Source: Odiellus spinosus (taxonomy: Eukaryota; Arthropoda; Arachnida; Opiliones; Phalangiidae). From it: a stretch of 64,000 bases of DNA. A model generated the notes under the pieces. That model did no database searches and was not told the origin of the DNA. It saw only the letters and a list, made by a program, of their open reading frames with translations. This document shows, piece after piece, positions 612 to 28,924 of the stretch. The position numbers were made by a program, and so were the translations under genes. How positions within the stretch are numbered: the stretch's first letter is position 1; every line of letters begins with the position of its first letter. The DNA lies in the NCBI GenBank assembly GCA_963920705.1, contig OY987232.1, positions 18,017,942-18,081,941 of the forward strand, read 5' to 3'.

Positions 612-3600
612 ATGTTAGCCAGTGTGGCCCAGTATTCAAAAGTTTATCCCGAATATTTTTTCAAATACAGGTAAGACATTAAACATTAGACGAGGTTGAT
701 AATAAGGGAAGATTATTTTTAAGAAAATAGGCTTAGCTGGATACAAGATCATCCTGAATTTCTTCGCATTGAAGGGTCAGCAACCAATCGAATTCTATTT
801 GAATTCTCACGGAAATCTCGCCTTAACGACGGGTATTTGTTCATTTATAGCTGACCCATCATTGTGAAAAAATTCAGGATATCCACGAATCCAGCTAAGC
901 CTATTTTTGGGTTAGTTTTGAAATTGATAAATTTACTTTTTATTAGGTTGCATTCTCCCTTGAAACAAATTATTTTTTATCGTTCACAGATTTACAGAAG
1001 AGGTTCATGCAGTCTATGCAATCGTGGAAGTAAGTATATTATTTTCTTGGCTTCATAAACCTATATTTGTAAAAATAGCCAAATTATCTCCCCTGTCTGG
1101 CTCGAATAACCCAATTCTTCTTGGTTTAAATAATATAGGAAAGTGATCTGTATCCACTACAGATGCTAAAATACGACTACAGCTCAGACTACGCACAAAG
1201 AATACACAATATAAGGTAAAAACAGAGAAGAAAATATCCATTTCTTATTCGAGTATTAACGGATACCAGAATGTAACTTCAAATTAACGCAATTCCTACT
1301 CATTGTTAAATTGGGAAATTGATACGAGTTATAAAGTTATTCATTCGCCGATAACGAACAATTTGAAACCAAAGAGTTTCTTCGTCTTTTTAACCCAAAA
1401 TTTAGATCTCGAAGCTAGAACTGTTCCTTTCGATTTAGACGAACAAAGTGGAATTATTATATTTCATTCTATATTACGGATTTCGAGAAACGTCGTATTT
1501 TTATCTCGGCCCGATATCCGTTCGAATAAATTGATGGATAATTCGTTTATTAATTGAAATTTTATCTCCGGGTCTAATTCGTATCCATCATTTGAATACG
1601 ATTCTGTTTATATAATTTATGGATTTATATTAACTTAATTTATCAGAGATTAAAATATCTGAAAATAGCTTAGTTATAAATGGATAAGTTATTCATTTAC
1701 CGATTCCTATCTCTAACTTCGATATACCTAGATCTTCTTCTTATTAAACTTGGCTTCCTTCATTGAAAGTAATGCTTGAATTATAATTCTCATTTTCTAT
1801 TAGTATAAAATTAGAAAAAGTACCCTACAGCGAAATAATCAAAATTTTCAGTGCTGAAGAATATGCCTTGGCGGTAAGTATATAAAATTCTACGTCATCT
1901 TAAAAGGAGGCTGTCATAGAGGTTAAAAAACGATTCAAAATATATATACATATGTCATAGAACAAAATTACAGTGACAGTAAAAATACATATTTTATAAT
2001 CGCCTAATTTCGAAATTTTTAATAATTTTCTTCGACAATATGAAAGATAAGAGTTAATTTAAAATTAATATGTTGAATTAAAACCGGAAATTAGATTAAA
2101 GAATTTATATTTAATAGAATTATCCCGCCATACGCTTAATTAAGTTAATAATATATATTTGGGCAACGTCGTTCTGCTACCCGAGTGATAAGGACAGCCT
2201 AACTTCAAATTACTTTATAATTTTGAAGTTAACTATACATTTTTTAGAATGTGGACCTAGTAGTCATTCCCGTGGGCTTATCTACATTTTGTAGCAAATC
2301 GATAAGTGATTATTTCGTCCCTAGTGGCATTTTTCACGCGACGGAAACTATTATATTATCAGGCTCACCAAAATTATCATTGACAACTTCAATGTCATTT
2401 TTGAAAATGGATTTTGAGGTTGGTTTGTTTTTCTAAAAGCAGAAGCCGATGAACTCTCCTTTGAAGTCTATTTCTCCCGGGTCTTGTCTACCCCTCTCTG
2501 TATGGGTTATTCTCAAAAGGCGCGATTCGTACGCCTCCTAACGGTAGATGTTTTCGGAGCGGGAGCTCGTCGATCGAATATCTCTAGCAGCCTCGGAGTT
2601 CGTCCAAAAAACGTCGTCGTTTGTGGAGAGAGAGAATTTCCAATTTTCCGTAGACAGGGGGGTATGAAGTAGGACCCCTCCGATCTCGTAAAATTGGGAA
2701 TTTTACCCATACAGAGAGGAGCGCTATATGGAACATTGGAGTAGTAGACTTCAAAGGAGGGTTTCATCGGCTTCTGCTAAAATGGATAATGGAACCTAAC
2801 CATATTATTTATAGATTAGTTATAGTTAAAAAAAATACAAACAAATATTAAACTAGAAATAAATTTAAAACTTACCATGAAACTAGGCTTAGCTGGATTC
2901 ATGGAGATCTTAAATTTCTTCGCATTGAAGGGTCAGCGACCAATGAACAAACGAACCCTCGATTCGATTGGTCGCTGACCCTTCAATGCGAAGAAGAATA
3001 ATCTAACTAAGCCTATTTTGATGTTAAGTTATAAATTTATTTCTAGTGTTAATATTTATTTGTAATTTTGTTTACTGTTGGATTAGGCCTATTTAAACGA
3101 TAAGGAATCGATAAAAAAATCAATTTTTGTTAGGTTGCATTCTCCCTTTATTATCCGTTTCTTCGAGCTAAACATCTGATATATTTTTCCAGGTTACATT
3201 TTACTTTTCAATATTAGTTATCATCATATCATTTTTAATGTTGCATAAGATGTGGTACAATGTCATAACAAAAACGCAATTTTCAGCCAAAAACTTTAAA
3301 AAAGCTATCTTTGTGTTTTTAAAGACTGTATGGAATATCTTTTCCATATTTTTTTACGAACGTAAGTCAATAACTTTATTTCATATAAGTAAACAACGCC
3401 CCGTAGCTTAATACTATCAGAAAAGGTCCCCCTACAGTTTTGTTTCATAGACTTGTACTTAAAAATAGACAAAAAAGTCAACACCCCTGTCTGGCTCAAG
3501 TGATTTGGACTCTTCCTCGATATTTTGAGTCGGAAGAGAGAGTGTTGGAATTTATTCGGGCCTTGGCTATATCGTTTTCCCTCCTTCCAACTCCGGAATA

Positions 3601-6600
3601 AATTTCTCCGAAGGGTGGCGCCTCCTCCGTTCACTATTTACACTAGCAGCCGCTAGAGTGTCTCAAATCTGCAGAGTCTGGGGGTACATTGGACCTTTGA
3701 TGATAGTATCAGAAGCAGATGAAACCCTCCTTTGAAGTCTATTACTCCCTGGTCTTGTCTACCCCTCTCTGTATGGGTTAGTTTCAAAAAGCGCGATTCG
3801 TACGCCTCCTAACGGTAGATATTTTCGGAGCGGGAGTTCGTCGAGCCAATATCTCTAGCAGCCTTGGAGTTCGTCAAAAAAACGTCGTCGTTTGTGGAGA
3901 GAGAGAATTTCCAATTTTCCGTAGACAGGGGGGTATGAAGTAGGACCCCTCCGATCTCGTAAAATTGGGAATTTTACCCATACAGAGAGGAGCGCTATAT
4001 CGAACATTAGAGTAGTAGACTTCAAAGGAGGGTTTCATCGGCTTCTGATAGTATTAAGATACGGGGCGCTGTTTACTTTTATGTAATAATGTTATAGACT
4101 TTTGATGTTATACTAATTTGTTTTCCAATACAGCGTATCCTTATAAAGTTTATCACATTTCGGATCGGATTTTGTACGGATTTTGGTTAATTGGAGTAAT
4201 GTTTATTGGATTTTTAATGACTTGCTTTCTCAAGTCAAAGTTCTTTGATGAAAAATATTTTTTTGTTGAAACTATCGAAAATATTCGAGATTTACACAAA
4301 AGAGCCGAAATGGAGCCACTTATGCTAAAAGATGGGTTGGTTTATCAATATCTTAGAGGCATAGTAAGTACTATTCTAACGACAGTGTAGGTTAGAGCTC
4401 GGAATTCGTATAACTTTAATTAATTTAATAAGAGCATCTGTGAATGTCAATCGGATATTAAAATATCCATTTCTTATTCGAGGTATTAACGGATACCCGA
4501 ATGATAACGGCAAACTAACGCGATTCCTACTCATTGTTAAATTGGGAAATTGATACGAGTTATAAAGTTATTCATTCGCCGATAACGACAATTTGAAACC
4601 AAAGAGTTTCTTCGTCTATTTTAACCCAAAATTGAGATCTCGAAGCTAGAACCGTTCCTTTCGATTTAGACGAACAAAATGGAATTATTATATTTCATTC
4701 TATATTACGGATTTCGAGAAACGTCGTATTTTTATCTCGGCCCGTTATCCGTTCGAATAAATTGATGGATAATTCGTTTATTAATTAAAATTTTATCTCC
4801 GGGTCTAATTCGTATCCAGCATTTGAATACGATTAATTAATAATTAATTCATTCTTTGTATTTCGTTTTAGGCCCAGGAAGACAAGTTTATAAGAGATTG
4901 GTTAGAAAATAAACTAAATGATGAAAATTTTTGCGAAATAACCGATTTAATTGATTTGGACACTTACATTCCTATCTTGGAAGGGAAAAAAGCCTTGATT
5001 CAGAGTACACAGTTAATGAATTGGTTCTTTGGTTACGCTCTGACCTTTGACATGGATGAAATGGGGGAGTTAAAAGAACGCAGTGATGGTTTTTATTTCT
5101 CACCATACATCAAGAGTGATATTCTATTAATGCCAGTCAATTCATCGTTTGTACAAAACAGACGATTCCAAGATAATTTTAATTTAGGGTAATAAAAATT
5201 TGTTTTAAGAACTTATTACTTAAAGGGGGAATGCAACCGAACAACAAATGATTTTTTTATCGATTCCTTATCGTTTAAATAACCTTAATCCACTAGGAAA
5301 ATAGAAATTATAAATTTTTAGACGTATTTTTGTAGGGGGAAACTCAAACTTAACGCAGAAATTGAAAGCGTAAGCCTGGGATTTTTCCGAAGCTCGTAAA
5401 ACCTTATTTCCCGATTCCCTTAATTAATTAGGTTGGCTAATTAGGGTCGTATCTTCTCCGAGTCATATTTTAGAATGTTGTAGTTGCGTTCCGCGAATAG
5501 CCCCTTTCTTAACCTACAAAATGAGCTCTTCCATCTTTAAATATATCCAACCAAAGTTAGGTTATTCATTTTTAAATGAAAGTGTTCAGAATTAGAAGCG
5601 TTCAGAATTAGAAGCGTTCAGAATTAGAAGCGTTCGGAATTAGAAGCGTTCGGAATTAGAAACGTTCGGAATTAGAAACGTTCGGAATTAGAAACGTTCG
5701 GAATTAGAAACGTTCGGAATTAAAAGCGTTCGGAATTAAAAGCGTTCGGAATTAAAAGCGTTCGGAATTAAAAGCGTTCGGAATTAAAAGCGTTCGGAAT
5801 TAGAAGCGTTCGGAGTTAGAAGCGTTCGGAGTTAGAAGCGTTCGGAGTTAGAAGCGTTCGGAGTTAGAAGCGTTCGGAGTTAGAAGCGTTCGGAGTTAGA
5901 AGCGTTCGGAGTTAGAAGCGTTCGGAGTTAGAAGCGTTCGGAGTTAGAAGCGTTCGGAGTTAGAAGCGTTCGGAGTTAGAAGCGTTCGGAGTTAGAAGCG
6001 TTCGGAGTTAGAAGCGTTCGGAGTTAGAAGCGTTCGGAGTTAGAAGCGTTCGGAGTTAAAAGCGTTCGGAGTTAGAAGCGTTCGGAATTAGACGCGTTCG
6101 GAATTAGACGCGTTCGGAATTAGACGCGTTCGGAATTAGACGCGTTCAGAATTAGAAGCGTTCAGAATAGTTACGTTCACACTTGCCACTTTGAAACTTT
6201 TTTCAAACTGATTCGAAGGTTTAAATCGACTTTCTAAGGAATACATTTTGTTTTTTGATCAACGATCTACGCGGTTGACCCCAAAATTTTATTATTTGAC
6301 CTTTCCCAAACGGTTAAAAACCGTTTCAAAGTGTCTAGTGTGAACGCGGCTAATTAGAAGCGTTCAGAATAAGGCGACCCTACCATAGTTTTGGAATTCC
6401 AATCACATCACTACCATTTGTTTAAATTTCAGATTTCTCGCACTATTTGAAACGAAAGCTTTTGATTATCTGGACTTCGGTAGTGAAATGGCGATGGATT
6501 TCGTAAAATGGAAAAGACCAATGAAAACAGCTACAAATCTTTCAATGTTTGCGATGGCTGGAGTGTTTTACGTTATGTTAGGGTGTTTATTAATCTGCTG

Positions 6601-6649
6601 CGCAGTATTCTTTATCGAATTAACTCTCGGCTTTGATGTTTTTTCGTGA
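612..6649 (+). CDS. Ionotropic receptor-like gene 1 (divergent iGluR/IR family)
   Basis: Nine exons (612-670, 990-1029, 1139-1215, 1804-1873, 2248-2418, 3193-3361, 4134-4363, 4872-5188, 6433-6649) join in frame to 449 residues. An aminoterminal half-lobe is followed by a hydrophobic segment at about 140-158, a pore-like loop, a second segment at about 208-227 preceded by the motif ISDRILYGFW, a second extracellular lobe, and a last segment at about 418-439. This order (S1, M1, pore, M2, S2, M3) is that of ionotropic glutamate-type receptors; the 'R-I-L-x-G-F-W' motif before M2 and the acidic E-L after M3 fit arthropod IRs. No signal peptide or amino-terminal domain is seen, so an upstream exon may be missing. 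It is very close to gene 2 (8880-13359), with identical intron phases. AATAAA occurs at 6651, almost touching the stop. The family call is confident; ligand and cell type are unknown. Confidence 0.82.
725..908. mobile_element. Foldback element E, in intron 1 of IR-like gene 1
   Basis: Inverted repeat whose arms begin aaaataggcttagctgga and contain ttgaagggtcagc. It sits between exons 1 and 2 of IR-like gene 1. Related foldbacks lie at 2883-3015 and 6740-6925. Confidence 0.6.
1240..1720 (+). repeat. Dispersed repeat A, partial copy
   Basis: AT-rich repeat of about 550 bp when complete, with termini resembling tagagctcggaat. This copy lacks the left end and lies in intron 3 of IR-like gene 1. 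Other copies begin near 4394, 8951, 15054, 24717, 33875, 42735 and 53765. The short reading frames inside it recur with the repeat and are not genes. Confidence 0.7.
1905..2190 (+). repeat. Dispersed repeat F, partial copy in intron 4
   Basis: Contains gttaaaaaacgattcaaaat, the string tatatacatatgtcatag and ttataatcgc, shared with copies near 17880, 25690 (reverse), 27560, 39730 and 54540. It lies in intron 4 of IR-like gene 1. Confidence 0.6.
2440..2776 (+). mobile_element. MITE family A (CAGAAG), copy 1
   Basis: About 337 bp, termini cagaagccgatga and tcatcggcttctg, flanked by ctaaaag and ctaaaat (6 of 7 match). It is in intron 5 of IR-like gene 1. A second inner inverted pair, ctctctgtatgggt and acccatacagagag, makes the element a nested foldback. 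Confidence 0.88.
2883..3155. mobile_element. Foldback element E, copy 2, with flanking arm
   Basis: Inverted arms around ggcttagctggattcatgg and ctaactaagcc enclose two facing copies of ttgaagggtcagcgaccaat. The right flank continues into an arm ending gttaggttgcattctccct, which recurs in reverse at 5223-5300. All of it is intronic in IR-like gene 1. Confidence 0.5.
3365..4105 (+). mobile_element. Element D, copy 1, interrupted by MITE A
   Basis: Terminal inverted repeats of about 50-60 bp (core gtaaacaacgccccgtagct) enclose a body with tagacaaaaaagtcaacacc. MITE A copy 2 is inserted in it at 3710-4047. It fills most of intron 6 of IR-like gene 1. Other copies or fragments are at 9258, 11678, 19440, 33461, 52683 and 55721. 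Confidence 0.7.
3710..4047 (+). mobile_element. MITE family A, copy 2 (nested in element D)
   Basis: Full-length copy flanked by an exact 7-bp duplication, atagtat. It is inserted into the right terminal region of element D, so it is younger than that element. Confidence 0.9.
4394..4850 (+). repeat. Dispersed repeat A, copy in intron 7
   Basis: Begins tagagctcggaattcg (with a small change) and runs to the tccgggtctaattcgtatcc block. It matches 33875-34431 and 53765-54192 over most of its length. Confidence 0.72.
5583..6168 (+). repeat. 16-bp tandem repeat in last intron of IR-like gene 1
   Basis: About 36 copies of a 16-bp unit, gttcggagttagaagc, with ordered variants: aattagaagc at both ends, aattaaaagc and gagttagaagc in the centre, aattagacgc near the right. 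The gradation of variants suggests stepwise expansion. It lies between exons 8 and 9. Confidence 0.95.
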
Positions 6650-6739
6650 AAATAAACCAAAAACGGAGAATGTAACCAACAAAAACGAAATTTACAAACA
6701 AATATTAAACTAGAAATAAATTTAAAACTTACCCTAAAA

Positions 6740-6925
6740 ATAGGCTTAGCTGAATTCATCAAGATTCTGAATTTCCTCGCAATAAAGGGTCAGCGACCAA
6801 TGAACAAAGGCTTTTCATTAAGCCGAGATCTTATGGTGATACTTTTAATAACATTTGATTGGTCGTTGACCCGTAAATGCAAAGAAATTCAGGTGATCTC
6901 CATGAATCCAGCTAAGCCTATTTTT
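6740..6925. mobile_element. Foldback element E, copy 3, downstream of IR-like gene 1
   Basis: Inverted arms with ggcttagctgaattcat and atgaatccagctaagcc, about 100 bp after the stop codon of IR-like gene 1. Confidence 0.55.
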
Positions 6926-7024
6926 TGGGGTAAGTTTCTAGTTTAATATTTATTTACCAAAAATAACTTAGGAGTAAATTTCTTTTTAACAAAACATGTT
7001 ATGAATATTAGATATAAATAATAG

Positions 7025-7442
7025 CAGAGGTATATAATAACCCCCTTCGGGGGGAAGTATGAAAGGTAGGCAAAATCGACGAACAACGAGTGCCCGGCGT
7101 AAATCGCGGCGGATCGACACACCGCTTTACTCCCAAAAAATAGTTACACCATTTTGAACCTCACTAAATTTTCCCTACGCGCGCTTCCGGAACTCGCGAG
7201 CTGAAGTCAAAATTCGACTCCATTTTAACAGACAGCCTGACTCCCGAGACAGGAAGTTCTAAACACAAATCGAGCCGTCTTGTTTATACAAAGACCATTT
7301 ACTAGAGTAGCGACATTGAGAAGTCCAGCGCGAGCTAGTGGCCTAGATAGTCAGCAGCGGGTTCTTGTTGTTCGTGATTTTTAGCATTGGTAGTATAGGG
7401 GCTTTCATACTTCCCCCCGAAGGGGGTTATTATATACCTCTG
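7025..7442. mobile_element. MITE family B (CAGAGG), copy 1
   Basis: About 418 bp with long inverted termini starting cagaggtatataataaccc. A 20-bp stretch, atattagatataaataatag, occurs immediately on both sides, longer than the 7-bp duplication of copy 2 (35376-35793). There is no credible coding content. Confidence 0.82.
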
Positions 7443-7885
7443 ATATTAGATATAAATAATAGACTAGAATTTTCACAATATAATAAAATTCTAGACGAAA
7501 ACCTAATGTCCCAAGTAGATGTTTAGCGTGGTACATTCACCAGCCTTACATTATTGATTAAATCATGAATAACATGAGAGCTTGTTTAATTGTCTTGTGT
7601 TTCATGGCACGAACACGTTAATTGTAAGAAAACATACGTGCATTTCCATAATAATTCACTTAAAATGAATAATAAGTTTTTGGAAAGTCAACACCTGGTC
7701 TTTTCAAAGATCTCCGTATTATTCTAGACTTCAAAGAGTGTGGATTGACTCAATTGTAATAAAACGATAGAAATTATGCACCCCGAAATAAAATAGGATT
7801 ACTTATCTGTTTCGCAAATCAGATATTGTACAAATAAGTAAGTTAATAAAAATTTATTAACACTATTTTTATTTGATTTTATGTT

Positions 7886-8345
7886 CTAAGCCAGATATTT
7901 ACGGGTTAACAGATAACACAATTAAACTTTAATTATATTAGTTTTTACGACCATTTGTCTATTCAATCTCTGATTTTATATATCTGACGTATCTGTTCTA
8001 ACTGATAACCATTTTTGTATAAGCCAGATATTTACCGTATAACAGATACCTAAACAGATAACTCAATTAAACTTTAATTATATTAGTTTTTACGACCATT
8101 TGTCTAATCAATCTCTGATTTTATATATCTGACTTATCTGTTCTAACTGATAACCATTTTTGTAAGCCAGATACTTACGGGTTAACAGATACCCAAACAG
8201 ATAACTACCAATTAAACTTTAATTCCACGACCATTTGTTTAATCAATCTCTGATTTTATTATATCTGATGTATCTGTTCTAACTGATAACCATTTTTGTA
8301 AGCCAGATACTTACGGGTTAACAGATAACTGTACAATTTAACTAT
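7886..8345 (+). repeat. About 140-bp tandem repeat between IR-like genes 1 and 2
   Basis: Three to four imperfect units containing aatctctgattttatatatc, tctaactgataacc and gccagatacttacgggttaa. The related motif acagata continues irregularly to about 8620. No gene is seen in 7443-8879. Confidence 0.75.
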
Positions 8346-8879
8346 AATTATATTTTTTTTACGAAATAATGCGAATTTACTTAATAATAGTTATGTGTTT
8401 CATAGTTGACTGGCAGATAAAAAGGGCCACGTTAAAAGACAGATAAAAATATTATGCGTTTAAATTTCCTTCAGATAAGCCCCGCTTAACAGGTATCTGT
8501 TTCTTGTAATTATATTAAAAAAAATCAGTTTATCCGATTTAGAATCAGTTTTATCTGTTAACCGAACAGATATCTGGAAAACTAGCTAAAATAGACGTAG
8601 GGAACAGATAACAGAATTATACATATAAATTATACATATAAATCCTAAATAAAGAATATTTCACATTAATAAATTATTTTTTCGCAAAAAATAAAAAAAC
8701 GATTTAAACCGCTGGATACAACCAATCTGATTGGTTCTTGTTAACCCTAATGATGTAATGATCATGTTCTACCGTATATATATATTTACGGTATATAAAT
8801 ATATTACTTTTTTAGGTAATCGATTTCAATGAAAGTTTGAACTTGCAAATCGATTTGAGAGAATTAACTAGTCGCAAAA

Positions 8880-11800
8880 ATGTCGACCAGTGTTGCTCAG
8901 TATTCAAAAATCTATCCGGATTATTTCTTCAAATACAGGTGAGCTTAAATTATTGGGTCTAATTCGTATCCAGCATTTGAATACGATTCTGTTTATATAA
9001 TTTGTGGATTTATATTAACTTAAATTTATCCGAGATTAAAATATCTGAAAAACGCCTAGTTATCAATGGATATCCTATAAGTTCATTATCCGACTCCGAG
9101 CTCTAGTTAAATCTAATTAATTCAAACTTCATTTTCTTTTGTTTAATTCGAATTAGATTTACAGAAGAGGCTCAAGGTATTTACGGAATAGTTGCTGTAA
9201 GTTATGCAAAAATATTACAAGGCTACGGAACTAAGTGCTCGCATTAACCAATAGTCTATTACAAAACAACACCCCATAGCAAAGGTCCAGTTTTGTTACA
9301 TATCCTATCACTTAAAAATAGACAAAAAAGTCATCACCCCTGTCTTGCTCGAGTGATTTGGACTCTTCCTCGATATTTTGAGTCAGGAGAGATTGTTGGA
9401 ATTTAGGCGGGCCGCGCTTGGCTATATTGAATTCCCTCCTTCCAACTCCGGAATGAATTTCTCCGCAGAGTGGCGCTTCTGTAGTTCACTATTTACACTA
9501 GCGACCGCTAGAGTGTCTCAAATCCTGCAGAATCTGTTGATACATTTACCCGGACATTTTCTGATAGTATTAAGCTACGGGGTCTTGTTTACTTTTATCA
9601 GAAGCCGATGAAACCCTCCTTTGAAGTCTATTACTCCCGGGTCTTGTCTACCCCTCTCTGTATGGGTTAGTTTAAAAAAGCGCGATTCGTACGCCTCCTA
9701 ACGGTAGATATTTTCGGAGCGGGAGTTCGTCGAGCGAATATCTCTAGCAGCCTCGGAGTTCGTCCAAAAAACGTCGTCGTTTGTGGAGAGAGAGAATTTC
9801 CAATTTTCCGTAGACAGGGGGGTATGAAGTAGGACCCCTCCGATCTCGTAAAATTGGGAATTTTACCCATACAGAGAGGAGCGCTATATGGAACATTAGA
9901 GTAGTAGACTTCAAAGGAGGGTTTCATCGGCTTCTGCTTTTATGAGATTAAGTTATAGACTTTTGCTTTCGACTTTATTCTACAGGAAAGTGATATGTTT
10001 CCACAACAGAAAAAGAGATACGAATATAGTGTAGATTTCGCAAAAAGAATACATAATTTAAGGTAGGAGTTGGTGGAAAATTTCTAATAATTAATAGCTT
10101 CAAACTGATGACAACTCAATTTTCTCAGCGTCATACTGGAAAAGATACCTTACAGTGATTTAGTTAACGTTTTAAATGGAGAAATATTTGAAATAGTAAG
10201 ATTTAAAGGGAAACTTGAAGCTAAATGCAATTCCTTTTTTTTAACTCCATTGAATTATTTATTAATTTTTCAGAATGTGGATTTAGTTGTCGTTCCAGTA
10301 GACTTAAGTACATTTTGCAGACGTGAGATAACCCTTCATTTCGTCCCAAGTAGTATTTTTCACTCTACAGAAACAATTATAATGTCTGGACCCCCAAAAC
10401 TGTCATTAACAACATCAATATCCTTCTTGACAATGGATTTTGAAGTAAATTGAATCTGAATTTTTTTGGATTTTATTTTACTTCGTTCTGAGCCTAATCA
10501 GAAGCCGATGAAACCCTCCTTTGAAGTCTATTACTCCCTGGTCTTGTCTACCCCTCTCTGTATGGGTTAGTTTCAAAAAGCGCGATTCGTACGCCTCCTA
10601 ACGGTAGATATTTTCTGAGCGGGAGTTCGTCGAGCGAATATCTCTAGCAGCCTCGGAGTTCGTCAAAAAAACGTCGTCGTTTGTGGGGAGAGAGAATTTC
10701 CAATTTTCCGTAGACAGGGGGGTATGAAGTAGGACCCCTCCGATCTCGTAAAATTGGGAATTTTACCCATACAGAGAGGAGGGCTATATGGAACATTAGA
10801 GTAGTAGACTTCAAAGGAGGGTTTCATCGGCTTCTGGCCTAATTAAATTTTCTTTTCAGGTTGCATTTTGCTTTTGTCTATTAGCTATTATTATATCAAT
10901 TATGATGTTGCACAAGACTTGGTACAATGTCATAACAAAACCAAAATTATCAGCAAAAAAGTTAAGAAAGATCATTACTGAATATTTAAAGATTCTGTGG
11001 AACATAATCTCCATATTCTTTTACGAACGTAAGTTTTTATAAACAATTTTAAAATTGAGTCATTCCCCGCAATCTACGTCATCACTATGGAACCTTAGAC
11101 CATAATGTATTCTACAAATGTAATTAAAGTGAGGGTGTCATGGAGTTTTAATTAACTTAAATCTAGATTAAGTAGCCTTTTCGAAAAGACTGCTGAAAAA
11201 ACAACGCGATTGTAAAAATACATATTTTATAATCGCCCATTTTCGAAATGTTTTAAAATAAAAATTCCCCGTAATCTACGTCATCACTATGGTCACGTGA
11301 TTTAACGATTGTAGAGCCTACAGTTAATTCTCGAGCGAGTGATAATCCAAATCAAGTCAAAAACCTTTCGTATGAATTTAATTATGGTTAATTACGGGTT
11401 CCACTAACATAAAATTTAATTTTAATTTATTTCGCAGCATTTCCGAACAGACTTTATCATATTTCGGAGAGAATATTGTTGGGTTTTTGGTTAATCGGAG
11501 TCTTGTTCATTGGATTTATAATGAGTTGTTTTCTGAAGTCAGAGTTCTTCGACGAAAATTTTTTGTTTGTCGACACAATTGATGCGCTTCGAGATTTTCA
11601 AAAACGAGGGGAAGTGGAACCACTTATGCTAAAAGATGCCCTTGTATATCATTATCTCAAGAACAAAGTACGTACTATCAAAAGTATATAACTTTATTCC
11701 ATAAAAGTAAACAACGCCCCGTAGCTTGATACTATCAGGTCCAGTTTTGTTTCAAATCCTATCACTTCAAAATAGACAAAAAAGTCATCACCCCTGCCTG

Positions 11801-13359
11801 GTTCCAGTGATTTGGACTCTTCCACGATAGTCCACTGTTAGGCTAATAACAGAAGCCGATGAAACCCTCCTTTGAAGTCTATTACTCCCGGGTCTTGTCT
11901 ACCCCTCTCTGTATGGGTTAGTTTCAAAAAGCGCGATTCGTACGCCTCCTAACGGTAGATATTTTCGGAGAGGGAGTTCGTCGAGCGAATATCTCTAGCA
12001 GCCTCGGAGTTCGTCAAAAAAACGCCGTCGTTTGTGGAGAGAGAGAATTTCCAATTTTCCGTAGACAGGGGGGATGAAATAGGACTCGTAAAATTGGGAA
12101 TTTTACCCATACAGAGAGGAGCGCTATATGGAACATTAGAGTAGTAGACTTCAAAGGAGGGTTTCATCGGCTTCTGCTAATAATTAATTCATTCTTTGTA
12201 TTTTGTTTTAGGCCCAGGAAGACAAGTTTATAAGAGATTGGCTAGAAAATGAATTAAATGATGATAATTTTTGCGAAACAATTGATTTAATTGACTTGGA
12301 CACTTATATTCCTATCCTGGAAGGTAAAAAAGCGTTGATTCAGAGTAGACAGTTTGTGAACTGGTTCTTTGGTTACTCTCTTATCGAGAACATGGATCGA
12401 ATGGGGGAGTTAAAGAAACGCAGTGATGGATTTTATTTCTCGCCATACATCAAGAGTGATATTTTACTTATGGCAGTAAATTCATCGTTTGTGCAAAACA
12501 TTTTATTCAAAGAAAACTTCAATTTAGGGTAATTTTCTTATGAGATAATTTTATTAATTAAGGGAGGTTGAAGAGGATATTAATCAGGGTTCGTTAATTT
12601 CTCTGACCTTGTGGGCCAATTTCCAAATTCCCTGACCTTTTGGGTTAATTTCCTAATTTCCAGACTTTTCCTAACCTTTTGGGCCAATTTCCAAATTCCC
12701 TGGCTTTTTAATGATCTTTTGGGCCAATTTCCAAATTCCCTGACCTTTTGGGTCAATTTCCAAATTCCCTAACATTTTTCTAACCTTTTGGGTTTATTTC
12801 TAAATTCCCTGACTTTTCCCGGATCTTTTGGGTCAATTTCCAAATTCCCTAACATTTTTCTAACCTTTTGGGTTAATTTCCAAGTTTCCTGACTTTTCCA
12901 TGACCTTTTGGGTCAAATTCCAAACTCCCTGACTTTCCCTGACCTTTTGGGTTAATTTCCGAATTCCCTGTCTTTCCCTGACCTTTTGGGTTAATTTCCA
13001 AATTCCCTGTCTTTCCCTGACCTTTTGGGTTAATTTCCAAATTCCCTGACTTTTCCCTGACCTTTTGGGTGCGTCCTTAAGAAGCTTCAAAATGAAAATC
13101 TCAAAAAAAAAATTATAATTTCAGAATCCTGGTCATGTTTGAAACGAAAGCATTTGATTATATGGATTTTGAAAGCGAAATGGCGATGGATTACGTTAAA
13201 TGGAAGAAACCAATGAAAACAGCTACAAATTTGTCTATTTTTGCAATGGCTGGAGTTTTCTACGTTACCTTAACTGGATTTGTTATCTGTATCGTGGTAT
13301 TCTTATTAGAATTAAGACTTGGATTTAGCGCTTACGCACCAATATCAAACATAAAATAG
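8880..13359 (+). CDS. Ionotropic receptor-like gene 2 (divergent iGluR/IR family)
   Basis: Nine exons (8880-8938, 9157-9196, 9986-10062, 10129-10195, 10274-10444, 10860-11028, 11438-11667, 12212-12528, 13125-13359) give 454 residues. Hydrophobic segments at about 139-157, 207-226 and 417-438 and the motif ISERILLGFW before the second match the M1, M2 and M3 layout of ionotropic receptors. Exons 1-3 and 5-8 are the same length as in gene 1, and all phases agree, so the two are recent tandem duplicates. The frame upstream of the start contains a stop (TAA) within 20 bases, which supports this ATG unless a spliced upstream exon exists. Three MITE A copies, two element D copies and a satellite are all intronic and sit at positions different from those in gene 1, so they arrived after the duplication. 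AATAAA is at 13463. Ligand unknown. Confidence 0.83.
8951..9113 (+). repeat. Dispersed repeat A, 3' fragment
   Basis: Only the right part of the repeat, from gggtctaattcgtatccagc to the end near gactccgagctcta. It lies in intron 1 of IR-like gene 2. Confidence 0.6.
9258..9958 (+). mobile_element. Element D, copy 2, interrupted by MITE A
   Basis: Body with tagacaaaaaagtcatcacc and a right terminal repeat ending at tatagacttttg. MITE A copy 3 is inserted near the right end. The left terminal repeat is eroded. It fills intron 2 of IR-like gene 2. Confidence 0.65.
9599..9936 (+). mobile_element. MITE family A, copy 3
   Basis: Full length, exact 7-bp flanking duplication cttttat, nested in element D within intron 2 of IR-like gene 2. 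Confidence 0.92.
10499..10836 (+). mobile_element. MITE family A, copy 4
   Basis: Full length, exact 7-bp flanking duplication gcctaat, in intron 5 of IR-like gene 2; the same intron of gene 1 carries copy 1, but at a different site. Confidence 0.92.
11050..11345 (+). repeat. Dispersed repeat F, copy in intron 6 of IR-like gene 2
   Basis: Contains two occurrences of aatctacgtcatcactatgg about 210 bp apart, with cttttcgaaaagactgctga between them. The same unit is tandemly repeated at 17935-18600. Confidence 0.65.
11678..11838 (+). mobile_element. Element D, copy 3, left fragment
   Basis: Left terminal repeat from caaaagtatataactttatt plus the start of the body, truncated near 11838. MITE A copy 5 follows. 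It is in intron 7 of IR-like gene 2. Confidence 0.65.
11850..12176 (+). mobile_element. MITE family A, copy 5
   Basis: Slightly shortened by an internal deletion near 12080; exact 7-bp duplication ctaataa. It lies just upstream of exon 8 of IR-like gene 2, with its right end about 35 bases from the acceptor. Confidence 0.9.
12596..13071 (-). repeat. 'ccctgacctttt' satellite in last intron of IR-like gene 2
   Basis: Degenerate units of about 29-40 bp built from ccctgaccttttgggttaat and tttccaaatt. The same satellite recurs at 16361, 20597, 22701 and 28150. Apparent reading frames in it (repeats of KLTQKVRE) follow from the period and are not a gene. Confidence 0.92.
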
Positions 13360-13690
13360 AAAATAACAGTTCGCGGTTTTCACTTTTTGAATTGAAATCT
13401 TCTTTAGTTGATGACATAATTTTGATAATTATAACGTCAGAGATTAACGAATATTGTTTAAAAATAAACTTAATTGATCATTTCCGTACCTATCTCGCGT
13501 TCTATTATCTCCAGAACTTTACTTCCGACGAATTGTTAAAGTCGGACGTAGTTCGTGGGATAATTTGATTAATTTTAAGTTTAATTTTAATCTAATTACG
13601 ATAAGAAACGTATATTATAACGATATTTTACGGATAAACTCAAAGATATCGCTACTATAGAGCCTATATTATCCTAGACCGGTTAACGTC

Positions 13691-13821
13691 TGGCCTACAG
13701 CGTGTCTACCCGCTTCCCTGAGAGATGAGATAAATCAAACGAACTGCGACCCCCTATTAATGAAAATCAGAGCCATCTGGTGTTTTTTCATCGTACTAAA
13801 TAACCCTTTACTACCGCCTTA
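13691..13821 (+). mobile_element. Remnant of 'taaggcggtag' inverted-repeat element
   Basis: Shares tggcctacagcgtg, cccgcttccctgagagatg and the right end ctttactaccgcctta with the complete element at 17306-17547. The left terminus is missing. Confidence 0.6.
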
Positions 13822-13847
13822 AAGATAAAAAAAAAAAACAGTATAAC

Positions 13848-14185
13848 CAGAAGTAGATGAAACCCTCCTTTGAAGTCTACTACTCTAATGTTGGATATAG
13901 CGCTCCTCTCTGTATGGGTAAAATTCCCAATTTTACGAGATCGGAGGGGTCATACTTCATACCCCCCTGTCTACAGAAAATTGGAAATTCTCTCTCTCCA
14001 CAAACGACGACGTTTTTTTGACGAACTCCGAGGCTGCTAGAGATATTCGCTGGACGAACTCCCGCTTCGAAAATATCTACCGTTAGGAGGCGTACGAATC
14101 GCGCTTTTTGAAACTAACCCATACAGAGAGGGGTAGACAAGACCCGGGAGTAATAGACTTCAAAGGAGGGTTTCATCGGCTTCTG
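13848..14185 (-). mobile_element. MITE family A, copy 6
   Basis: Full length, opposite orientation to the preceding copies, exact 7-bp duplication gtataac. It lies between IR-like genes 2 and 3, which are otherwise separated only by repeats (13360-15244). Confidence 0.92.
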
Positions 14186-14520
14186 GTATAACTAAAACAT
14201 ATTTCGCTTTGATACGGATCAAGGTTGGATTTCGTGATTATAAGTCTATTATATGATTACCTACTTTTAATCTCATAGTGAAACAAATAATTCCACTATA
14301 AGATAATTAAACTTTTTATGTGGGCACGTAATTATATAAATTGGATATAATATTTGGCTGTTGTCTTCGTGACAAGAATATTGAGTGCAACTATTGTTGG
14401 ATCGAATATTTTTGGCCTTTAAAAATATTTTTGCCGAAGCCGTAGTCTAGAAAAGGTAGCAATATAATATTCAAATTTCTCTAAGGTTTGCACATTTTCT
14501 TGGAATCGGATAATGAATAA

Positions 14521-15240
14521 ATAGAGCTCGGAATCGGATATCCATAATTTTCCGTTATTCGTATATTTTCAGATATTTTATTTTCGGATAAATTGGAACT
14601 AAAACTATGAAATTTGTATATTCGAATAATTGTTAAAAGGTTTACCCGAAGATAAGCCTTCGCCGCTTTATCTATCTACAAATTACTCGTTTTCAAACGT
14701 ATAACGATGGATAAGAAATATTCGCGTTTCCAGAATTAGTCGAAAATATAAGAAACAATATTTCAAATTGACTTTTAATTCGAAGAATAGAAATAAAACG
14801 ATAAGATTTTAAATCATCTTTTTATTCGTTATTTTTCACGGAAAATAAATTTTGAATTCAATTTTTATCCTCGCGTATAACGCAATGGATAATATTCGAA
14901 GATAAGGCGGCCATTTTTGGATAAAAACGGATATGGATTACGAGTTTTTACTTTATCTTGGAATAAGTTAACACGAATGAAAAATAGTCTATTTTTAATC
15001 AAACAGATAATATAATTAGTAGATTTTATCCAATTAATAATACGAATTCCGAGCTCTATGAATAACTTCGGATATCCACAGATATTTTAATCTCGGTTAA
15101 ATTTAAGTTAATATAAATTCAAAAATTATATAAACAGAATCGTATTCAAATGCTGGATACGAATTAGACCCGGAGATAAAATTTCAAGCTTGATTAATAA
15201 ACAAATTACGATAAAAATACAACGTTTTTAAGTGTTTTTA
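14521..15240. repeat. Dispersed repeat A, variant with both termini, plus adjoining fragment
   Basis: 14521-15058 begins tagagctcggaatcgg and ends with the inverse attccgagctcta; its interior differs from the commoner form and matches 59060-59475 in reverse. From 15054 an inverted fragment of the common form follows directly, suggesting that one copy inserted into the end of another. No coding sequence is recognised here. Confidence 0.6.
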
Positions 15241-15244
15241 AACT

Positions 15245-18200
15245 ATGAATGCTATGGACCATCGAAATAATGATTTCGTACGCTTTGCTGGTACCGCGGT
15301 AAGTTCAAATTACAATTAAAATAATTATGAAGCCGTGTTTCAAAATGTTCTTCAAATAACCATATTTAAGTTAATTTTTTTTTTAAATAGTTACCGTTCT
15401 ATTTTGAACATGATGATGGAAATATGTTCAGTGGTCATATTGGTAAATTATTAGCAGCATATACGTCTAAGTTTAACATAAGGTAATTAGCCAAAGACAG
15501 AAGTTTTATTTTTAAAATCAGAATTTTCCTCAGTTACATTTAATTTATTAATTAATAAAATTAATTATAATTTAATTATCGAATAGCTATATTGTTAATT
15601 TGCATGGAATGGCGCATTTTGGAGATATATCTGTTGACGGGACGAACGGAACAGGAGTCGTTGGGAGTCTAATTCGAAATGTTTGATTTTTCGATTTTTT
15701 TTTTTTAATTTTTCTAGTTTTATCAGAAGCCAATGAAACCCTCCTTTGAAGTCTATTACTCCCGGATCTTGTCTACTCCTCTCTGTATGGGTTAGTTTCA
15801 AAAAGCGCGATTCGTACGCCTCCTAACGGTAAATATTTTCGGAGCGGGAGTTCGTCGAGCGAATATCTCTAGCAGCCTCGGAGTTCGTCCAAAAAACGTC
15901 GTCGTTTGTGGAGAGAGAGAATTTCCAATTTTGCGTAGACAGGGGGGTATGAAGTAGGACCCCTCCGATCTCGTAAAATTGGGAATTTTACCCATACAGA
16001 GAGGAGCGCTATATGGAACATTAGAGTAGTAGACTTCAAAGGAGGGTTTCATCGGCTTCTGGTTTTATCATTAGTAGTACTTTATAATATTAAATCATAG
16101 GAATCCGATCTTTCAATTATTCCAATGGAACCCGACGAAAAAAAAATTAAATTTTTAAAGTTTACTGGGACAATCTACAAACAAGATATTCCAATCGTCT
16201 CCATCACTGAAAATCCAATAAAAACAATAACCTTTTCACTCTTTTCTATTTATGGTCAAGAGGTGAGTTGTTTAATTTGGATTAATATTAAATTAATTTA
16301 TATTACCCGGTTATGGACAAGCACTTCCCACTTTTATTCGACATAGTTTATAAATCAGGCTCTTACCTGACCTTTTGGGTCAATTTCAAAATAGCCTGAT
16401 TTTTACCTGACCTTTTGGGCTAATTTCCAAATTTCCTGACTTTTCCCTGACGTTTTGGGGCCAATTTCCAAAATTCCCTGACTTTTCCCTGACCTTTTGG
16501 GTCAATTTCAAAATAGCCTGATTTTTACCTGGCGTTTTGGGGCTAATTTCCAAATTTCCTGACTTTTCCCTGACGTTTTGGGGTCAATTTCCAAATTCCC
16601 TGACTTTTCCCTGACCTTTTGGGTCAATTTAAAAAACCCTGACTTTTCCCTGACCTTTTGGGTCAATTTCCAAATTCCCTGAATTTTCCCTGACCTTTTG
16701 GGCCAATTTCCAGATTCCCTTACTTTGGGCCAATTTCCCTGACCTTTTGGGGCTAATTTCCAAATTTCCTGACTTTTCCCTGACGTTTTGGGGCTAATTT
16801 CCAATTCCCTGACCTTTTGGGGCTAATTTCCAAATTTCCTGACTTTTCCCTGACGCTTTGGGGCCAATTTCCAAAATTCCCTTACTTTTCCCTGACTTTT
16901 TGGGCCAATTTCCAAATTCCCTGACCTTTTGGGATGAATTCCCAAATTTCTTGTCTTTTCAATAACCTTTTTGGCCAATTTCCAATTCCCTGACTTATCC
17001 CTTACCTTTTGGGCCAATTTCCAGATTCCCTTACTTTTCCCTGACCATTTTGGGCCAATTTCCAAATTCCCTGACTTTTCCCTAACAAAACTGCTACTAG
17101 TAGATATTTTTATCGTTATTTTTAGGTGTGGTTTCTATTACTATTCTTCATATCGTTTTTATCTGTTTTATCTACGAGTTGCGGTCAACTAACACGAACT
17201 AAAAAGATCTCAATTAGGGGAAAAAGTTATTTAAAATCAATGGAAACTCAAGCATTTCTCTTCATAGCGTCCATTCTTAGACAAGGTCAGAGCAAACATT
17301 ATTTTTAAGGCGGTAGTCAATGGGTAACTCACCAAAAAAGGGTACCACAAACGCTATCTGGCCTACAGCGTGCCTACCCGCTTCCCTGAGAGATGGGGAA
17401 AGACGTTAGAAGTAAGAGTGAGTTGAATAGACTGGGAAATAATTCAAACGAAGCTTACCCCCAGATAAACTGCGACCCCTTTTAATGAAAAACAGTGCCA
17501 TCTCGTGGTTCTTTCATGGTACTAAATAACCCTTTACTACCGCCTTAATAGCGTAAAAACAATTAACAATAATTAATTTGCAAATTAATTTACAGCAATA
17601 CGAATTGGTAAATCTTACACATATCTCTTAATATGGGCCTTTTGGTTCATTGGTGGATTTTGGCTCTCAAGTGGATTTTCGGGCGTTATATTATCGAAAC
17701 TAGCCCGTCCAATCATTCCGGAGTATATCAACAATCTCCAAGATATATTACAAAAGAAAAATATTACAGTTTACGTTCTGAAAGACACTCCGATCGAAGT
17801 CAGAGTTAAGGTAAAATCAAAAAATACTCTTTTTCATGAACTCCAAATGAAAATTGAGTCATATTTTCGGGTTGATCGTTAAAAAACGATTCAAAATATA
17901 TATACATATGTCATAGAACAAAATTACAACGACACTAAAACATACATATTTTATAATCGCCCATTTTCGAAATGTTTAAAATTAAAATTCCCCGCAATCT
18001 ACGTCATCACTATGGAGCCTTAGACCATAATTTATTCTACAAATGTAATTAAAGTGAGAGTGTCATGTAGTTTTAATTAACTTAAATCTAAATTAAGTAG
18101 CCTTTTCGAAAAGACTGCTGAAAAAACATACCCCGATTGTAAATATACAAATTTTATAATAGCCCATTTTCGAAATTTTTAAAATAAAAATTCCCCGCAA

Positions 18201-19892
18201 TCTACGTCATCACTATGGAGCCTTAGACCATAATGTATTCTACAAATGCAATTTAAGTGAAGGTGTCATGTAGTTTTAATTAACTTAAATCTAAATTAAG
18301 TAGCCTTTTCGAAAAGACTGCTGATAAACATACCCCGATTGTAAATATACAAATTTTATAATCGCCCATTTTCGAAATTTTTAAAATAAAAATTCCCCGC
18401 AATCTACGTCATCACTATGGAACCTTAGACCATAATGTATTCTACAAATGTAATTAAAGTGAGAGTGTCATGGAGTTTTAATCAACTTAAATCTAAATTA
18501 AGTAGCCTTTTCGAAAAGACTGCTGAAAAACATACCCCGATTTTAAATATACAAATTTTATAATTGCCCATTTTCGAAATTTTTAAAATAGTCGTCTGAT
18601 TTCGATATTGTGGAGATTACAGTTAATTCTCTCGCGTGTGATAAGCTCGCTTTCGCGCGGTCTTTTTCGTAAAAGTACTTAATCCAGATCATTTTAACGT
18701 TTTTAGAATTCAGCTGACGAGACAGCGATTAAAATATGGGAAAAAGTAGTTTCGGAAAACTCTTGTATTGACGTCGAAGATCTCGTAGGAGTCCTATCGG
18801 ACCTTACAAATATGAACGATCAGAACTCGCATTTGGTTAACTTCGCTACTTTACTTCCGGCAAGTTACTTAATCGAAGCTTTGCATACCTTTGGAATTTG
18901 TGACAATATAAACATAAAAAGAATGATTCACGTTTCAAATGAAAAGCCACCTTTCACAATTCAACTCATGTTACCGTATAGGTAAAACTAGTTTAGTTAA
19001 CTTATTAAAATATAATACATATATTTAAATATTTTTAGCAAATTTTACAAGAATTCTAAAGTAATAAAAAGCTTTCGATTCATGTAAGTATTGTCAGAAG
19101 CCGATGAAACCCTCCTTTGAAGTCTACTACTCTAATGTTCGATATAGCGCTCCTCTCTGTATGGGTAAAATTCACAATTTTACGAGATCGGAGGGGTCCT
19201 ACTTCATACCCCCCTGTCTACGGAAAATTGGAAATTCTCTCTCTCCACAAACGACGACGTTTTTTTGACGAACTCCGAGGCTGCTAGAGATATTCGCTGG
19301 ACGAACTCCCGCTCCGAAAATATCTACCGTTAGGAGGCGTACGAATCGCGCTTTTTGAAACTAACCCATACAGAGAGGGGTAGACAAGACCAGGGAGTAA
19401 TAGACTTCAAAGGAGGGTTTCATCGGCTTCTGGTATTGTCAAAAGTCAATCACTTTTATTCCATGAAAGTAAACAACGCACCGTAACTTAAAATAAAACT
19501 TTATTAATTATTACAGGAGTTCACGTTTTTTCGAATGTGGTATAATCAACTTTTTAATCGAATCTAAAGTGTTTCGAGCCGATTCCTGTTTCTCACTAGA
19601 TTTATCACTAAATAAAGACACTACAGAAAAACCCGTTAGCTTCGCAAACTTAAAAATAACTTTTGGCATCGTATTGCCGATCATGTTTCTTGGATTTTTG
19701 GTTTTTATGGTTGAAATTCTAACCCCGGCTAAAGTTATTAAATTAATAACATCATGTCCACGATCGAAATCGATTCAACGCCGACGTCATCGTGGAAGAG
19801 ATTTAAAGAAACGAGACCGCGAAAATATAAACAGGATTTATAATTATACCTTTGTTCTGCAGTACACAGTTCAACGACATAATAGTGTGTGA
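15245..19892 (+). CDS. Ionotropic receptor-like gene 3 (divergent IR family)
   Basis: Nine exons (15245-15298, 15391-15482, 15587-15680, 16101-16262, 17126-17285, 17596-17810, 18707-18981, 19039-19083, 19517-19892) join in frame to 490 residues. S1 begins LPFYFEHDDGN; hydrophobic segments lie at about 135-151 (WFLLLFFISFLSVL), 195-218 (after IRIGKSYTYLLIW) and 414-434, followed by a basic tail with SIQRRRHRGR. Introns around the channel have phases 0, 0, 1, 0, 2, the same as in genes 1 and 2, which supports homology despite low identity. An extra intron splits the end of S2. The exon 3 donor, gtttga, is weak. No signal peptide is seen, so an upstream exon may exist. The last exon lies between two parts of a transposon-like element. 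The family assignment rests on topology and paralogy; the ligand is unknown. Confidence 0.8.
15724..16061 (+). mobile_element. MITE family A, copy 7
   Basis: Full length, exact 7-bp duplication gttttat. It occupies most of intron 3 of IR-like gene 3 and ends about 40 bases before the acceptor. Confidence 0.92.
16361..17086 (-). repeat. 'ccctgacctttt' satellite in intron 4 of IR-like gene 3
   Basis: About 20 degenerate units of roughly 40 bp with variants cctgacgttttggggc and cctgaccttttgggcc. It fills most of the intron before the exon encoding the first membrane segment. Confidence 0.92.
17306..17547. mobile_element. 'taaggcggtag' inverted-repeat element in intron 5
   Basis: Starts taaggcggtag and ends ctaccgcctta. 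The interior shares tggcctacagcgtg with 13691-13821. It is non-coding and lies between exons 5 and 6 of IR-like gene 3. Confidence 0.7.
17835..18690 (+). repeat. Repeat F, locally amplified (about 202-bp unit, three copies) in intron 6
   Basis: The block ccccgcaatctacgtcatca occurs at about 17990, 18193 and 18394, giving a period of about 202 bp. Each unit also holds cttttcgaaaagactgctga. The same unit occurs singly near 54670 and 54870, so a dispersed repeat has become a tandem array here. Confidence 0.8.
19095..19432 (-). mobile_element. MITE family A, copy 8
   Basis: Full length, exact 7-bp duplication gtattgt, in intron 8 of IR-like gene 3, only 11 bases after the exon 8 donor. Confidence 0.92.
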
Positions 19893-22700: not shown

Positions 22701-23153
22701 CCCTGAATTTTCCAGGTTTTCCCTGACACATTTTAATATTTTTTCGTGAATTTATTCTTACGAGCTGGTAATTTTCAAATTCCCTGACCTTTTGGGGTTA
22801 TTTCCAAATTTCCTGAAATTTTCTTGACCTTTTGGGGTAATTTTGAAATTCCCTGAATAGTCTCTGACCTTTTAGGCCAATTTCCAATTTCCCTGAATAT
22901 TCTTTGACCTTTTCGGGTAATTTTCAAATTCCCAGAGTTTTCTCTGAACTTTTGGGGTATTTTCTAAAAATTTCCCTGATATTTTGGTCCAATTTCCAAA
23001 TTTACTGACTTTTCTCTGACCTTTTGGGGTAATATTCAATTTTCCTGAGTTTTCCCTGACCTTTAGGGCCAATTTCCAAATTGCCAGACTTTTCCCTGAC
23101 CATTTGGGCCAATTTCCAAATTCCCTGAATTTTCCCTGACCTTTTGGGGCTAA
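22701..23153 (-). repeat. Older, diverged 'ccctgacctttt' satellite
   Basis: About a dozen units with many substitutions (for example ccctgaatattctttgacct). The divergence contrasts with the homogeneous array 500 bases away. Nothing recognisable as a gene is seen in 22213-24047. Confidence 0.85.
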
Positions 23154-25416: not shown

Positions 25417-25917
25417 GGAGGGGCATCTTACTAATTGCGTCAGATTTTAAAAATTTTCTCGATAGAGAAGAGACAACGGACTCCGAGAGTCTCAAAAAGG
25501 TAAAGAATATTTTTTTTTAATAAATTTTTAAAAAAATATTTAAAAATAAGGAATTTTTTTTAAAATTGATATTTTGTCAACGATATTAAAGGGAGAATGA
25601 AGTAATTTAATAAGTTTTCATTATTTGAAAGCGTATTTTAATTTTATCGATTTTTTGAATTTTAATTTTAATAATTTCGAAAATGGGTTATTATAATATA
25701 TGTATTTTTAGTGTCGCTGTAATTTTGTTCTATGACATATGTATATATATTTTTAATCGTTTTTTAATGACCAACCCGAAAATATGACTCAATTTTAATT
25801 TAATTAATTTTAGACGAGTCTGTAATTCAAATTCTGAATTTATTAATTATTATTAATTATTAAATATATATTATTTTTAATATTTTTTATCAGATTCCCA
25901 ATTAACAACAACTAATC

Positions 25918-27860: not shown

Positions 27861-28149
27861 AATTACTAAAATATATAAAAAACTAAAAATATATAAAAAA
27901 ATGGTGACATTTCAGTATCACTTTAAGGTGAAAATACTTCTATTCGAAAACACTCTACTAATCAATCATTATATCGATTTCAAGGAAAATGTCAATCAAG
28001 ATGAATATGAAACGTATACGACAGTAAACTTAAATGATGTGGCATGCATAAATTACTATGTGATGACAAGATGTATGGCCATAAATATATTCCACATTAT
28101 ATCATAAGTATATGACAAATAATGAAAACGTACCAAAATATTTAATTTC

Positions 28150-28800: not shown

Positions 28801-28924
28801 ATTTACAAATATATATAATATATATAACTATAACAGTGAAAAAACTTCACGAAAAATTAATTTTGAAACGATAGAAAGTGTCACACATATTAGTCTTATA
28901 TTACTTAAGATCATAAAAACTTGA

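Follow-up and report, generated by a model that had tools for sequence, protein, structure and literature searches.

We analysed a 64,000-nucleotide stretch of the genome of the arachnid Odiellus spinosus (contig OY987232.1, C8 in our numbering, positions 18017942-18081941), which is called the window throughout; genome searches covered the 443-Mb assembly with its 286 contigs. The first 20 kb of the window contain three protein-coding genes that most probably encode divergent ionotropic receptors (IRs), and that would comprise an old tandem pair, genes 1 and 2, and a neighbour from a deep branch of the same family, gene 3. We estimate the probability of this reading at about 0.8. A preliminary description, made by a model from the sequence alone, had proposed a tandem array of three divergent IR-like genes between positions 612 and 19892. 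Position 612 proved to be the precise start (ATG) of gene 1 and position 19892 the precise end of gene 3 (stop codon), and our analysis of the sequence confirmed that there are three real protein-coding genes at the locus.

All three genes are intact and lie on the plus strand, and their splice sites could be read directly from the sequence. Gene 1 (612-6649) and gene 2 (8880-13359) consist of nine exons each and encode 449 and 454 residues, respectively, whereas gene 3 (15245-19892) consists of eight exons and encodes 475 residues after correction of one donor site. The correction concerned exon 3 of gene 3: its former end at 15656, a weak donor, was dropped, and comparison with a paralogous locus, L048, gave 15680 instead. 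Every intron of the three models is of the GT-AG type. The intron phases are 2,0,2,0,0,1,0,2 in genes 1 and 2 and 0,2,0,0,1,0,2 in gene 3, so that exon 1 of gene 3 is the counterpart of exon 2 in the other two genes. The series 0,0,1,0,2, previously described as shared, was correct, and two further introns are also common to all three genes. Beyond 20 kb, no additional family members were found in the window in a tblastn search with 19 family proteins (E 0.01).

Next, genes 1 and 2 were compared with each other. Their proteins are 69% identical and are encoded by nine matching exons. Over 448 codons, the synonymous divergence (dS) was 0.80 and the nonsynonymous divergence (dN) 0.18, resulting in a dN/dS ratio of 0.22, and the ratios for the nine individual exons ranged from 0.14 to 0.43. 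The differences were distributed over the three codon positions as 76, 66, and 164. Judged from these values, genes 1 and 2 represent an old tandem duplication that has been kept under purifying selection. Alignment of the introns of the two genes was limited to short or repetitive sequences, namely 40 bases of intron 2, a 338-bp element in intron 5, and the terminal 34 bases of intron 7. The copies of the element in intron 5 are separate insertions, because their flanks differ. The junction of intron 7 and exon 8 (4842-4901 compared with 12182-12241) is nearly identical: 29 of the last 30 intron bases and all of the first 30 exon bases agree. Because the other introns hardly align, this sequence hints at a gene-conversion tract.

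The dN/dS ratio and the codon-position bias of genes 1 and 2, together with paralogues that have the same splice positions, exclude that the gene models arose by chance. A block rich in repeats could also harbour pseudogenes in decay, but this reading is improbable for the present copies. Many insertions and satellites are present in the introns, and some donors of gene 3 are weak (e.g. AAT|GTTTGA), as might be expected during decay. However, not a single internal stop codon or frameshift was found in the 449, 454, and 475 codons of the three genes, and the dN/dS ratio argues for selection, at least for genes 1 and 2, to which it applies exclusively as no close paralogue of gene 3 was found for such a test.

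The assignment to the IRs was based on sequence profiles, which place all three genes in the glutamate-receptor-channel superfamily. In Pfam, the channel family PF00060 matched gene 1 with an E-value of 3.7e-6 (27.3 bits) and gene 2 with 7.1e-5 (23.1 bits). PF10613 matched gene 3 with 30.9 bits, compared with a cut-off of 30.0, but only when the corrected exon 3 was used. L048, a relative of gene 3, scored above the cut-off for both families. Because the predicted structures of the S2 exons were too poor, evidence for the fold was taken from profile searches of the sequences of solved structures. Gene 1 alone retrieved GluD1 at 4e-4, a profile of five gene-1-type proteins retrieved GluA2 at 1.6e-10, and a profile of four gene-3-type proteins retrieved GluK2 at 1.2e-13, with an alignment that spans the region from S1, the first half of the ligand-binding domain, to the last membrane helix, M4. 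The hydropathy profiles of genes 1 and 2 show their three highest peaks at the positions expected for M1, M3, and M4; in gene 3, the peaks for M1 and M4 are prominent and that for M3 is weaker. These results support both the IR-like identity that had been proposed and the proposed layout S1-M1-pore-M2-S2-M3, which corresponds to M1-pore-M3-S2-M4 in the classical numbering. By profile match, the order S1-M1-pore-M3-S2-M4 is that of the kainate, AMPA, and delta glutamate receptors with solved structures. Unlike these receptors, the three proteins have no amino-terminal domain (no Pfam match of the PF01094 type was obtained, and fewer than 40 residues precede S1), and a signal peptide is not visible. 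Unlike GluK2, in which the sequence VREKV contributes an arginine in S1, gene 3 has a lysine and gene 1 a cysteine at this position, as read by eye from the profile alignment; this replacement relates to the loss of conserved glutamate-binding residues that is characteristic of IRs.

Several results weigh against this identification. With PF00060, neither gene 1 nor gene 2 reaches the gathering score of 30.8 bits, and no match to this family was found in gene 3 using Pfam. The HMMER comparison with PF00060 and PF10613, which had been suggested as a check, gave a mixed outcome: gene 3 is just above the cut-off (with PF10613), and genes 1 and 2 are below it (with PF00060). In addition, genes 1, 2, and 3 are absent from the 77 matches listed by a genome-wide PF00060 search, in which 150 of 314 candidates were scored exon by exon. 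Structure prediction, the second check that had been suggested, was run on single S2 exons, and the quality was poor: the mean predicted local distance difference test scores (pLDDT) were 56.3 for exon 8 of gene 1 and 60.8 for exon 7 of gene 3, each with its paralogues.

The membrane topology was deduced from two features. A glycosylation sequon is present at one column of S2 in 10 out of 12 S2 exon sequences, several of which are close paralogues. The net charge flanking M1 in genes 1, 2, and 3 is -1, -2, and 0 before the helix and +5, +6, and +5 after it. Both features fit a location of S1 and S2 outside the cell, which is the normal arrangement of IRs. The proteins would be subunits of ligand-gated cation channels that contain a two-part ligand-binding domain and a channel only. 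By analogy with the family, they may assemble as tetramers, perhaps together with a conserved co-receptor. Binding of a chemical between the extracellular lobes S1 and S2 would open the cation pore in a chemosensory neuron.

Gene 3 aligns with genes 1 and 2 in pieces only, with 22-29% identity over the longer ones (calculated with the former exon 3 end at 15656), which bears out its earlier characterization as very diverged. A tree was constructed for 19 proteins, i.e. the three genes and 16 out of 20 loci (L037, L042, L055, and L056 were omitted because their models were broken or partial). Genes 1 and 2 joined with a support of 100/100, and gene 3 joined L048, which is located on another contig, also with 100/100. 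The two groups formed separate clades, and L044 and L047 grouped with genes 1 and 2; as the sequences had been selected as relatives of either gene 1 or gene 3, this split is partly built in. The proposed tandem birth therefore holds for genes 1 and 2 and does not extend to gene 3, which, on this tree, comes from a different deep lineage of the expanded family and adjoins the pair.

Alternatively, all three genes could be local tandem duplicates of a single ancestral gene, gene 3 having diverged at a very high rate. They are adjacent, lie on the same strand, and share the phases 0,2,0,0,1,0,2. However, the same intron positions and phases recur in paralogues on other contigs: all eight were found in L047 and six each in L039, L040, and L048. 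The aligner had received no intron positions. In L038, L041, L050, L052, and L054, for which the alignments are weak, individual introns are placed differently. The shared phases are thus an ancestral trait of the family and not evidence of local birth. Together with the grouping of gene 3 with L048, and with the built-in part of that separation taken into account, this makes a single local array very improbable, and the combination of an old pair with a deep-branch neighbour is clearly preferred.

The family is large in this genome. A search with exon 7 of gene 1 yielded at least 96 matches with E-values up to 0.009 among the 150 that were listed, and many places in the genome match exon 6 of gene 3. 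The latter query overran by about 23 residues into the intron, and matches to this tail only, which are repeats, were excluded. Some of the matching places are probably allelic contigs or pseudogenes. A genome search for the odorant-receptor family resulted in a single match above the cut-off (39.1 bits).

The amino-terminal ends of the proteins were analyzed in detail. By hydropathy, no signal-peptide-like stretch follows the start codons of the three genes: within the first 40 residues, the best mean over 8 residues was 2.02 for gene 1, where it falls at residue 25 and is encoded by exon 2, compared with 1.18 for gene 2 and 1.29 for gene 3. This agrees with the preliminary description, in which no leader had been visible. 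The first exons of genes 1 and 2 end in FFKY plus AG before the donor, and the motif of the clade is [FY]FKYR. A 16-base pattern for this exon end had 78 matches in the genome, compared with 20 for a reversed control. Eighteen of the 78 are located no more than 12 kb upstream of a same-strand exon-7 match, while 0.10 would be expected by random placement; four of these 18 (genes 1 and 2, L045, and L047) had been used to design the pattern. Within the same distance, five matches are on the wrong side of an exon-7 match and two are near one on the opposite strand. A set of 24 first exons was assembled from 20 of the 78 motif matches and the four design sequences. Thirteen of the 20 belong to the 18 near an exon-7 match, and the other seven were chosen by the motif alone. 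All 24 contain an in-frame methionine 15-26 residues before the end of the motif. The set includes 23 different peptides, and between the methionine and the motif the highest hydropathy mean over 8 residues is 1.46.

Loss of the signal peptide across the clade is a plausible explanation. Specifically, a clade comprising genes 1 and 2 with about 20 further members may lack a signal peptide and have a conserved, soluble start ending in [FY]FKYR, with M1 translocating about 139 residues including S1; gene 3 would have undergone the same loss, independently or at an older stage. We regard this proposal as tentative and give it slightly less than an even chance. Some receptors have long leaderless N-tails. 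If the signal peptide is truly missing, M1 would probably act as a reverse signal anchor and bring the S1 half to the outer side, and the N-tail moved in this way would have a length of about 139 residues. Among the papers listed by a literature search on leaderless IRs, on IR expansions in chelicerates and myriapods, and on leaderless membrane insertion, there was no report of an IR clade without a signal peptide; an indicated mention of a lacking signal peptide in PMC6307864 was not found in the main text of that article.

The competing explanation is that the signal peptide resides on an upstream exon that escaped detection and is spliced into or before exon 1, so that export would be ordinary and the missing leader an effect of annotation. 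We consider this unlikely, albeit less so than the other alternatives. There is a precedent, as most annotated IRs seemed to be 5'-incomplete because a signal sequence was not found, according to a passage in Croset et al. 2010 (PMC2924276). An in-frame stop codon precedes the methionine in 22 of the 24 first exons (the remaining two are open throughout the stretch that was read), and in 7 of the 24 no AG occurs between the stop and the methionine, which argues against an acceptor in this interval. However, AGs also occur after the methionine, and when the stretch up to the motif is included, these seven exons contain one to six of them. Furthermore, in five of the 24, including gene 1, a plausible acceptor is present before the methionine, and this result counts against the proposed leaderless start.

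The sequences upstream of the methionine were also compared. The first exons of genes 1 and 2 share 80% identity and have a dN/dS of 0.14 over 20 codons, whereas the 200 bases upstream of the methionine could not be aligned between the two genes, so that conservation begins at the methionine. On the other hand, in 3 of the 24 first exons a hydrophobic stretch is found in an open frame just before the methionine (9-residue means of 2.47 in gene 1, 2.06 in L065, and 2.11 in L067), and upstream of gene 2, two ATG frames (6800-6929 and 6833-6929), each with a phase-1 donor, are hydrophobic. Both observations favour an upstream leader exon. No such frames with a donor were found on the opposite strand upstream of gene 2; the frames at 6800-6929 adjoin a repeat sequence that, by eye, is also present inside gene 1. 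In five related sequences, base differences were more frequent before the methionine (90 of 270) than after it (48 of 240), and frame-breaking indels were seen by eye before it. This comparison speaks against a coding upstream stretch but does not decide the leader question, because neither stretch has a codon-position bias. In gene 3, the ATG is preceded by an in-frame TAA at a distance of two codons, and the sequence up to the donor is free of AG. For this reason, exon 1 of gene 3 cannot be internal. Provided that it is a true exon, it must, as far as the sequence allows a judgement, be the start exon; no counterpart was found upstream in L048, and it is without paralogue support. We retain the leaderless start as the somewhat better, still tentative, explanation.

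The three genes share several characteristics with the divergent arthropod IRs described in parts of PMC2924276, i.e. a two-lobed ligand-binding domain, a glutamate-receptor-type channel, the lack of an amino-terminal domain, fast divergence, and copies that are both tandem and scattered. The same parts of that article report that divergent IRs of Drosophila are mostly single-exon genes, whereas the present genes have 8-9 exons. Most IRs are described there as having short N-terminal regions, with about 200 residues before S1 in most Drosophila IRs; in contrast, fewer than 40 residues and no visible signal peptide were found here. A section of PMC4244043 reports that 51 of the 54 IRs of the centipede Strigamia maritima belong to one expansion clade, and that this species has no odorant receptors. 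The situation in O. spinosus is similar in that the IRs of an arthropod outside the insects, which apparently lacks insect odorant receptors, form a large family that may represent a lineage expansion. Judged by the number of matches, this family has at least about as many members as the centipede clade. For comparison, a table in PMC6275457 lists 4-85 IRs across mites, a tick, a centipede, Daphnia, and insects.

Table 1. Exons of the three genes and copies of the 338-bp element in the window
Feature	Positions	Strand	Remarks
Gene 1 exon 1	612..670	+	start codon; MLASVAQYSKVYPEYFFKY; no visible leader
Gene 1 exon 2	990..1029	+	
Gene 1 exon 3	1139..1215	+	S1
Gene 1 exon 4	1804..1873	+	S1
Gene 1 exon 5	2248..2418	+	end of S1
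Gene 1 exon 6	3193..3361	+	M1 and pore loop
Gene 1 exon 7	4134..4363	+	second full membrane helix, start of S2
Gene 1 exon 8	4872..5188	+	S2, with sequon NSS
Gene 1 exon 9	6433..6649	+	last membrane helix, stop codon
Gene 2 exon 1	8880..8938	+	start codon; MSTSVAQYSKIYPDYFFKY; no visible leader
Gene 2 exon 2	9157..9196	+	
Gene 2 exon 3	9986..10062	+	
Gene 2 exon 4	10129..10195	+	
Gene 2 exon 5	10274..10444	+	end of S1
Gene 2 exon 6	10860..11028	+	M1 and pore loop
Gene 2 exon 7	11438..11667	+	
Gene 2 exon 8	12212..12528	+	S2
Gene 2 exon 9	13125..13359	+	last membrane helix, stop codon
Gene 3 exon 1	15245..15298	+	start codon; candidate exon, without paralogue support
Gene 3 exon 2	15391..15482	+	S1
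Gene 3 exon 3	15587..15680	+	S1; donor corrected via L048
Gene 3 exon 4	16101..16262	+	end of S1
Gene 3 exon 5	17126..17285	+	M1 and pore loop
Gene 3 exon 6	17596..17810	+	
Gene 3 exon 7	18707..18981	+	S2
Gene 3 exon 8	19517..19892	+	last membrane helix, basic tail, stop codon
338-bp element	2440..2776	+	gene 1 intron 5
338-bp element	3710..4047	+	gene 1 intron 6
338-bp element	9599..9936	+	gene 2 intron 2
338-bp element	10499..10836	+	gene 2 intron 5
338-bp element	11850..12176	+	gene 2 intron 7
338-bp element	13848..14185	-	between genes 2 and 3
338-bp element	15724..16061	+	gene 3 intron 3; reference copy
338-bp element	19095..19432	-	gene 3 intron 7
338-bp element, further copies	29332-29670, 34669-35007, 51781-52116, 52947-53283, 57069-57393, 58004-58377		

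The surroundings of the genes are rich in repeats. The 338-bp element is a non-autonomous DNA transposon family with the ends CAGAAGCC...GGCTTCTG, and its inverted ends comprise about 72 bp with about 80% identity. The target duplications are mostly 7 bp long, as determined by eye, and identity to the reference copy is 88-100%. The window contains 14 copies; the eight in the first 20 kb, seven of them in introns of genes 1-3, justify the earlier term transposon-rich block. Arrays of a minisatellite of about 40 bp (CCTGACCTTTTGGGCCAATTTCCAAATTC...) are present at 12599-13070, 16366-17083, 20612-22191, 22785-23150, and 28146-28810, and two of these are inside introns of genes 2 and 3. A 16-bp satellite (CGTTGGTTTCAAGTGT) covers about 7.4 kb (43824-51216), the last 223 bases being inverted.

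Four additional regions of the window were noted. Exons of an amino acid permease or cationic amino acid transporter are located on the minus strand at 40289-42802, where PF13520 and PF00324 were above the cut-off in one piece and PF13906 and PF00324 below it in others. A frame with a weak, sub-cut-off match to staphylococcal nuclease (PF00565) is found at 25906-27116 and adjoins a 15-bp repeat with about 42 copies. A long Ser/Thr/Gly-rich repeat frame at 37607-38437, built from about 31 copies of a 21-bp unit, had no Pfam match at E 0.01 and possibly encodes a mucin-like protein. Likewise, no Pfam match at E 0.01 was obtained for a cysteine-rich frame of 133 residues on the minus strand at 57540-57941. 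Elsewhere in the assembly, in addition to the presumed mitochondrial contig C286, mitochondrial COX1 is present on contig C17 in several long copies that contain stop codons (at L059 and other places). In the mitochondrial piece L058, a COX2 frame follows directly after COX1, an order that fits chelicerates or myriapods and speaks against insects and crustaceans; ARAGORN, run with the bacterial setting, found no tRNA in this piece.

Taken together, the cluster is mostly ordinary for the IR family, and the apparent clade-wide lack of a signal peptide is its one notable point. The genes add members to a known, fast-evolving family of chemoreceptors. If the leaderless start is true across the clade, missing signal peptides in IR annotations would not always indicate incomplete gene models, as was suspected for most of the IRs in the portion of PMC2924276 cited above. 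In that case, the proteins would also be test cases for moving a long N-terminal half-domain into the endoplasmic reticulum without a signal peptide.

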